A stretch of DNA of 64,000 nt from Sphingobacteriales bacterium. GTDB lineage: Bacteria > Bacteroidota > Bacteroidia > Chitinophagales > Chitinophagaceae. The notes under the pieces were generated by a model. The model did not search any database, was not told where the DNA came from, and saw nothing but the letters and a program-made list of their open reading frames with translations. This document shows, piece by piece, positions 1,327 through 1,791 of the stretch. The DNA lies in assembly GCA_016200915.1 (NCBI GenBank), contig JACQDV010000008.1, positions 1-64,000 of the forward strand, written 5' to 3'. Positions within the stretch are counted from its first letter, which is position 1. Every line of letters starts with the position of its first letter. The position numbers and the translations under genes were made by a program.

Positions 1327-1392
1327 TTCATCGAAATATCAGGCAAACTCATCGAAACAACCTGAAGTACCTAAGTCGGCGTATTATTTTTA
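1327..1392 (+). promoter_or_regulatory. Probable LytTR-activated promoter, copy 1
   Basis: Half-sites TTCATCGAAA (1327-1336) and CTCATCGAAA (1348-1357) repeat at exactly 21 bp, two helical turns, as expected for LytTR dimers. A Bacteroidota -7-like box TATTTTTA (1385-1392) starts 30 bp after the second TCG. No -33 TTG is visible, consistent with an activator-dependent promoter. Copy 2 has identical geometry. Binding itself is inferred. Confidence 0.65.
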
Positions 1393-1398
1393 CATCAT

Positions 1399-1663
1399 CA
1401 AAGAAACAATATCCACGAAAAACACCAACGCAAAATTTCAGTATAAAGAGAAGATCCAGTTATCGGAAAAAACCGCAAAACTATAATCCATCCTAAACGA
1501 AAGACTTAATTAATTCAATATATTTTGATCAACCAGTTAAAATTAACAGCAGCCTATTAGAGTTAACAACAACAGTAGAGATCCAACCCTAAGAAAATCA
1601 GGAAAACTTATTAGAACCACGATCTCAACTTACTTAAGCCCCTGAACGAGGGGCTGTTTTGTT
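1399..1663 (+). ncRNA. Putative LytTR-controlled non-coding RNA, copy 1 (about 265 nt)
   Basis: The unit runs from just after the -7 box to the terminator at 1637-1665. I see no ATG in it and no convincing coding frame. Its 3' part (about 1521-1665) aligns with copy 2: shared blocks include TTGATC, CAGCC, AATCAGGAAAA, ATCTCAACTTACT and the terminator. Copy 1 carries roughly 95 extra nucleotides near its 5' end. The RNA is rich in A and C with few hairpins before the terminator, which would suit base-pairing with mRNAs, but no target is identified. Start and end are estimated from promoter and terminator positions. Confidence 0.5.
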
Positions 1664-1665
1664 TG
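1637..1665 (+). terminator. Intrinsic terminator of ncRNA copy 1
   Basis: AGCCCCT (1637-1643), loop GAACG, and AGGGGCT (1649-1655) form a perfect 7-bp stem followed by a T-rich tail GTTTTGTTTG. Confidence 0.75.
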
Positions 1666-1725
1666 TGATATGATTAAAAAGGCTCATTTAATTCAAAGTT
1701 TTGGCTGATTAGTAAAGAGGATCGG

Positions 1726-1791
1726 TTCGTCGAGGAAAGGGGTTGTTTAATCGAAACGATCAGGAAAGACCATATCAGCGTATTATTTTTA
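1726..1791 (+). promoter_or_regulatory. Probable LytTR-activated promoter, copy 2
   Basis: Half-sites TTCGTCGAGG (1726-1735) and TTAATCGAAA (1747-1756) are again exactly 21 bp apart. The -7-like box TATTTTTA lies at 1784-1791, 30 bp after the second TCG, the same geometry as copy 1. The block GCGTATTATTTTTACAT is identical in both copies although the flanks have diverged, which argues for selection on the promoter. Confidence 0.65.

Follow-up and report, generated by a model that had tools for sequence, protein, structure and literature searches.

Paired LytTR-type sites behind a Chitinophagaceae response regulator gene as probable promoters of small noncoding RNA genes

What do two LytTR-type sites lying directly behind a LytTR regulator gene control? 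The question arose in a 64,000-nucleotide stretch of DNA (positions 1 to 64,000 of contig JACQDV010000008.1, assembly GCA_016200915.1), here called the window. Two genes on the forward strand precede the sites. The first (203 to 583) encodes a 126-amino-acid (aa) Hpt-like phosphotransfer protein with the motif HKIKPTFSLVG, whose weak match to Pfam Hpt (E=0.0032, 18.1 bits) falls under the curated cutoff. The second (580 to 1269) encodes a 229-aa response regulator with receiver and LytTR domains (Pfam Response_reg, E=1.4e-21; LytTR, E=3.3e-22). Half-site pair 1 is located at 1328 to 1360 and pair 2 at 1727 to 1759, both on the forward strand. A sequence-only reading of this DNA had claimed a 21-bp spacing of TCG triplets in both pairs, a -7 box 30 bp after the second TCG, and divergence of the bases between these kept elements. 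The triplets were indeed found at 1331/1352 and 1730/1751. The boxes (TATTTTTA; 1385 to 1392 and 1784 to 1791, forward strand) follow with 30 bp between in both copies, which corresponds to a start-to-start distance of 33 bp between the second TCG and the box, and the intervening bases differ, with GCGTATTATTTTTACAT identical in both. The promoter copies are two 56-nt stretches that lie 399 bp apart and are 75% identical. Their box agrees at 5 of 6 specified positions with the Bacteroidetes -7 consensus, which is given as TAnnTTTG in an excerpt of the source (PMC7366714). The pattern TCG-N18-YCG-N30-TANTTTTA had two matches in the 4.5-Mb, 96-contig assembly, which are the two window sites, with no third; read backwards as a control, it had one match in the same assembly.

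Downstream of the boxes lie two putative small RNA genes on the forward strand. The predicted start of gene 1 places it at 1398 to 1660, where it ends in an intrinsic terminator (1637 to 1660; stem at 1637 to 1655, then a T-rich tail), and its longest frame is 11 aa. Gene 2, likewise with a predicted start, occupies 1797 to 1962 with a terminator at 1932 to 1962 (stem at 1932 to 1955, then a T-rich tail) and a longest frame of 17 aa. RNA 1 contains five ATCC motifs on the forward strand (1411, 1454, 1486, 1490, and 1581; 1.0 expected), and RNA 2, which is homologous to the 3′ half of RNA 1, contains none. The sequence argues strongly that each putative promoter leads into a noncoding stretch ending in a terminator and not into a protein gene, and it is very probable that the paired sites act as switches for two small noncoding RNA genes. 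That the stretches encode small proteins or peptides is hardly credible: a 65-aa frame does occupy 1289 to 1486, but it begins upstream of the promoter. Across the wider set of units described below, the longest open reading frame (ORF) averages 25.8 aa versus 33.8 aa in shuffles, and 1 of 75 units exceeds its own 95th percentile; we rejected peptide coding because ORFs are shorter than in shuffles.

In a near relative (locus L032, genome G002), whose LytTR protein is 94% identical to that of the window, two tandem copies occur with spacings of 21 and 33 bp, one second half-site reading CCG; RNA gene 1 has a counterpart there. The bodies of the four units from the window and L032 can be aligned, and none of the four departs from the 21- and 33-bp spacings. 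The gene behind the window units encodes a hydroxyacyl-CoA dehydrogenase. Because neither this gene nor its flank has a match in L032, where about 3 kb behind LytTR is covered, the RNAs appear to travel with the Hpt-LytTR genes and not with the following gene. A role of the units as leaders or attenuators for genes downstream is very improbable, as is the view that they are functionless repeats. Multicopy and tandem occurrence in some genomes would suit such a reading, but different genes follow the units in the window and L032, terminators end 75 of 93 units, and promoter spacing is kept while bodies diverge.

Folded singly, RNA 1 and RNA 2 are both predicted to form a stem around AATCAGGAAAA, close to the 3′ end, a region that both L032 units fold otherwise, and an RNAalifold consensus of the four units supported nothing beyond the terminator hairpin. 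A DNA similarity search with unit 1 against 99 genomes gave convincing matches in the window's genome (G000) and G002 alone, the others being 25 to 38 bp long. A covariance model built from the four units (R1) gave no convincing match outside the genus (next best, E=0.042). At the Rfam gathering score, the window matches were two tRNAs only, and 16 related loci gave 0 matches.

We collected orthologs from 394 family genomes, two order-level genomes, and 17 named assemblies, which yielded 90 loci including the window, 89 of them distinct, since L032 duplicates L164 and only L164 was kept. The locus set also excludes ten weak matches among the named assemblies and one of the two matches in G025 (42% identity). 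Matches to the LytTR protein at E≤1e-58 were present in 71 of the 394 family genomes. The motif HxxKxxxxxxG is present in the ORF preceding LytTR at 83 of 87 other loci, a count that leaves out the window and L039, both with too little upstream DNA, and one duplicate, and a tblastn match to the Hpt-like protein was found at 79 of 89 loci with enough upstream DNA. At the sequence level, this is a conserved Chitinophagaceae system composed of an Hpt-like protein, a LytTR response regulator, and, usually, one to four predicted RNA units behind them.

The sequence-only reading had been staked on conservation of the 21-bp pairs in relatives, and the geometry proved to be kept in many family members. 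Among the 89 loci, the spacing of TCG upstream of TCGA peaks at 21 bp with 84 occurrences, each other spacing from 12 to 44 bp having 2 to 26. Boxes resembling the -7 element peak 33 bp downstream of TCGA (47 occurrences; other spacings, ≤7), with a matching peak of 41 at 54 bp, i.e., 21+33. The 21-bp peak matches the arrangement looked for in a LytTR target, in which a promoter is preceded by two direct repeats at a spacing of about 21 bp. An exact regular expression found pair plus box at 41 of 90 loci (one a duplicate), in 47 units up to 2.9 kb downstream, and had 0 matches in 216,830 bases of antisense over the first 2.5 kb. A cross-validated matrix (five folds, each trained on other loci, with related genomes shared between test and training folds) detected 80 sites at 62 of the 89 distinct loci, each of them on the LytTR strand and downstream of the gene. 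None lay upstream of or within the gene (215,012 bases) or on the reverse strand, and 943,180 bases of control sequence, reversed or complemented, gave none. By the matrix, 14 loci have two or more units. The conserved pairs, placed downstream of the LytTR gene in one orientation, support their reading as LytTR-type sites.

The consensus is CCCAAAAATCGAAGGTTT-n7-TTnGTCGAATAA, then CATCTTTGTATTG, in which TCG, A, and TTT were imposed by the regular expression for the training sites; the spacings in the spectrum were not imposed. The half-site consensus AAATCGAAGG/GTCGAATAA was set beside the published ACCnCTTAn by eye only. The box of the relatives is mostly CATCTTTG, with C as first base in 79% and with A and TTT fixed by the search pattern; the distance to the box, which the pattern left free, peaks at 33 bp. 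No site exceeded the matrix threshold at 27 of 89 loci. Nineteen loci with weak or no sites were read individually: in L119, a repeat RNA follows a box placed at 34 bp (counted by hand), and several others apparently have another gene directly behind LytTR (judged by reading, not gene calling). Three loci (L155, L158, and L093, from genomes G148, G310, and G418, respectively) have no site, yet their genomes carry units elsewhere.

A whole-genome pattern search of the 394 genomes returned 78 sites in 53 genomes, compared with about 44 for the backwards pattern. Matrix scores separate these into 49 sites at ≥17 and 29 sites at ≤14.9, and the latter are no more than chance expectation. Of the 49 strong sites, 47 are in genomes with the LytTR ortholog and the other two are in G143. 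Under a strict sequence rule, the figure is 24 of 25 genomes (Fisher P=7.5e-19, a value that ignores shared ancestry and includes linked sites). By position, 24 strong sites lie beside LytTR, 14 elsewhere in six genomes (G148, six; G370, three; G418, two; G310, G277, and G280, one each), 9 represent a single conserved site elsewhere in genus g104, and 2 are in G143. The 14 unlinked sites were not part of the matrix training. All 14 were read, and each stands before an AATCC..GAAA repeat stretch without an evident protein start; a second tandem copy in G310 brings such units to 15, and 12 of them have a terminator by rule. Both sites in G418 fall on other short contigs and so may still be linked to LytTR. 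The promoter signature has found predicted RNA genes far from the regulator and so can aid small RNA (sRNA) annotation in unannotated genomes. As separate observations, nine sites in genus g104 genomes, away from LytTR, carry a short conserved RNA (ATAATTAAATAGTGTTTTTCATAGG..) behind a similar promoter, and two of the nine were read (L207 near 1492, plus strand; L208 near 1515, minus strand), and L213 (G351:C97; 1501 to 1562, minus strand) is an exact-pattern match about 87 bp before a 194-aa ORF, possibly a protein-coding target or a chance occurrence.

These distributions bear on whether some other regulator, e.g., a LytTR paralog, reads the sites, the adjoining gene being coincidental. Paralogs do exist, with three LytTR matches at E≤1e-40 in G000, and G143 has sites with a LytTR protein only 39% identical and no match at E≤1e-58. 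The sites nevertheless cluster directly downstream of the LytTR ortholog, and strong sites elsewhere are nearly confined to ortholog-carrying genomes, which makes this explanation improbable. We consider it highly likely that the sites are promoters of noncoding RNA genes under the LytTR regulator encoded upstream. In G143, the gene after LytTR encodes a hybrid kinase of 728 aa with an Hpt-like C-terminal part (judged by reading). A tandem array of four short RNAs starts about 3.7 kb behind LytTR; their sequence is unrelated, and they share the promoter geometry. From this parallel case, the link from regulator to RNA seems to extend beyond a single RNA family. Within L209 (G143:C7:286500-290500), the array occupies 1060 to 2350 and consists of four tandem hairpin-tailed RNAs of about 60 nt, resembling a Qrr array.

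Most units tested belong to a family of AUCC-repeat RNAs (RNA-A); RNA 2 of the window, without any ATCC, departs from this pattern. Of 93 units, 75 had a terminator by a simple rule and no N, and setting aside near-identical ones left 72 distinct units. ATCC occurs 493 times in these 72 units versus 174.7 expected from dinucleotide shuffles; it is at least twofold enriched in 52 of them and below twofold in 20, with 0 to 29 copies per unit. AACC and GAAA are likewise enriched, and GAAA follows ATCC most often at 7 nt. GGA was not enriched in the 72 units (142 versus 165.9 expected). On average, the units fold less stably than their shuffles (mean z score, +0.69), although a few fold better. 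The enriched core comprises four bases with varied flanks, the common flanks all being enriched alike, and a protein partner therefore fits better than one antisense target. Pairing of GATCC with a GGATC in the 16S rRNA tail was considered and set aside; AATCC and ATCCTG are enriched about as strongly as GATCCA. Units at L144, L156, and L161 belong neither to RNA-A nor to the second family described below. Distal units of genus g118 and some relatives (L121, L122, L134, L137, and L139) have long conserved blocks in common (AATCTCCTCGAAGGAAAACC), and GTTTGACGACCCACAGTAAAG is conserved before the terminator in distal units of g118 and some relatives; these blocks suggest a further functional domain.

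The main rival to a protein-titrating role is that these are base-pairing sRNAs, Qrr- or FopS-like, that use AUCC..GAAA as repeated seeds against many mRNAs, with no decoy activity. The weakly folded bodies are in keeping with it, the four hairpin-tailed RNAs of G143 with the same promoter geometry resemble a base-pairing array, and excerpts of a study of Bacteroides report that GibS binds and represses an mRNA and that FopS RNAs share the GibS seed region (PMC11697453). A constant core of only four bases, with common flanks enriched alike, and a copy number ranging from 0 to 29 per unit speak against repeated seeds, and we regard base pairing as unlikely, if still a serious contender. Decoy action on an RNA-binding protein of the RRM family stands at close to even odds, at best.

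The choice of partner was guided by elimination. In 15 genomes (10 with the LytTR ortholog and 5 without it), CsrA and Hfq were found in 0 of 15 each, by a search that detected CsrA in 3 and Hfq in 5 of 14 well-known control genomes, and both were rejected as partners. RRM proteins were found in all 15 genomes, with three in G000; since the 5 ortholog-free genomes have them too, there is no phylogenetic signal, and RRM is a partner candidate by elimination, not by correlation. To our knowledge, mRNA control in Bacteroidota without Hfq or CsrA is largely open. The short AUCC motif is usable as bait for the RNA-binding protein.

At many loci, the unit nearest LytTR is a structured RNA (RNA-B) distinct from RNA-A. 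Its layout is TTGYGACGGTTAT, then TGAAATCC...GGATTTCA around a TGAGTA/TACTCA hairpin, then the terminator. In 16 RNA-B sequences, 89.3% of cells pair, with helix 1 nearly invariant and the structure drawn from the same 16 sequences. Double changes occur in 13 of 27 pairs, 7 of them in the terminator, leaving 6 of 16 outside it. The covariation score was higher than in any of the 500 shuffles or any slid version; 31 of 500 shuffles reached the count of further pair types. One member has a folding z score of -3.99. At E≤1.1e-7, a covariance model of RNA-B (R2) had matches in 26 of 89 sources, including the 16 of the training set, and it found no RNA-B in the window. Under stricter filters, RNA-B was present in 14 of 244 genomes, all LytTR positive and 11 of them training genomes. 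A site scoring ≥17 lies upstream of 16 of the 26 copies; the remaining copies mostly have CCG as the first half-site and nCT as the second, with the -7 box in place.

We propose the following mechanism. A hybrid kinase probably sends phosphate via the co-encoded Hpt-like protein to the LytTR regulator, a dimer of which would bind both half-sites on one DNA face, two helical turns apart, at roughly -45 and -66. Bound LytTR would recruit RNA polymerase, the sites acting as activator sites with constant spacing to a -7 box of the Bacteroidota type. Each promoter would drive a separate noncoding RNA with its own terminator. RNA-A (mostly weakly folded) and RNA-B would most likely bind and titrate a protein that recognizes single-stranded RNA, probably an RRM family member; the fate of that protein's mRNA targets would change as a result. 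We assign this explanation a probability of about 0.62.

Several known systems are comparable. In the Gac/Rsm systems of Gammaproteobacteria (GacA-RsmY/Z; UvrY-CsrB), a phosphorelay regulator drives several repeat-motif small RNAs via a conserved upstream site, and CsrB-type RNAs carry multiple GGA motifs in hairpin loops. The present system resembles them in its several small RNAs with a repeated short motif and its conserved upstream site, and its regulator may likewise be fed by a phosphorelay. It differs in having a LytTR regulator and an AUCC repeat, with GGA not enriched and CsrA not found in any of the 15 genomes, and RNA-A, instead of forming a string of hairpins, is weakly folded. Tentatively, and a little short of even odds, the system may be a Chitinophagaceae counterpart of the Gac/Rsm global switch assembled from unrelated parts: an Hpt-fed LytTR regulator, AUCC decoys titrating an RRM protein, and a structured partner RNA, in genomes where CsrA and Hfq were not found and with the strong targets read so far noncoding.

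A precedent for a LytTR protein driving an RNA is the agr system of Staphylococcus aureus, in which AgrA, a LytTR regulator, binds direct repeats upstream of P3, leading to the adjacent regulatory RNAIII (excerpts of PMC4227749). The combination of LytTR, direct repeats, and an adjacent RNA is alike; here, an Hpt-like gene replaces the peptide-signal genes and there are several repeat-type RNAs, the sequences having been compared via Rfam only. Bacteroides RbpB-FopS, as described in the excerpts of PMC11697453, also pairs a multicopy Bacteroidota sRNA family with an RRM protein, one that prefers single-stranded regions, a likeness at the level of description; in those excerpts, FopS promoters are sigma-ABfr or PM2, and LytTR control is unmentioned. 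Excerpts of an account of LytTR regulatory systems describe two repeats, mostly of 9 bp with 12 bp between, just upstream of -35 and note their low sequence conservation (PMC6193735). Two direct repeats just upstream of a promoter are found here as well, with a TCGAA-like half-site instead of ACCnCTTAn, mainly noncoding targets among those read, and an Hpt-like partner instead of a membrane inhibitor. Titles and abstracts among the matches listed in the open-licence literature describe no LytTR-controlled RNAs in Chitinophagaceae. The system is compact, conserved, and testable, with one regulator, a diagnostic promoter, and two RNA families without an Rfam match.

Further features were noted in the window's genus. 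A third RNA-A relative lies at a contig end in the window's genome (L236, G000:C92; 163 to 326, minus strand), with weakened half-sites (TCT/ACG) and the box at 34 bp by hand count. G002 also has a third unit elsewhere in the genome, with tandem CACTTATCCAATCCAAAG repeats. In the window, inverted C/G-rich blocks (CCCCTTCCCCTAAAGGGG and CCCCCTTAGGGGTTGGGGGC) occur at 2228 to 2300, directly upstream of the hydroxyacyl-CoA dehydrogenase gene.
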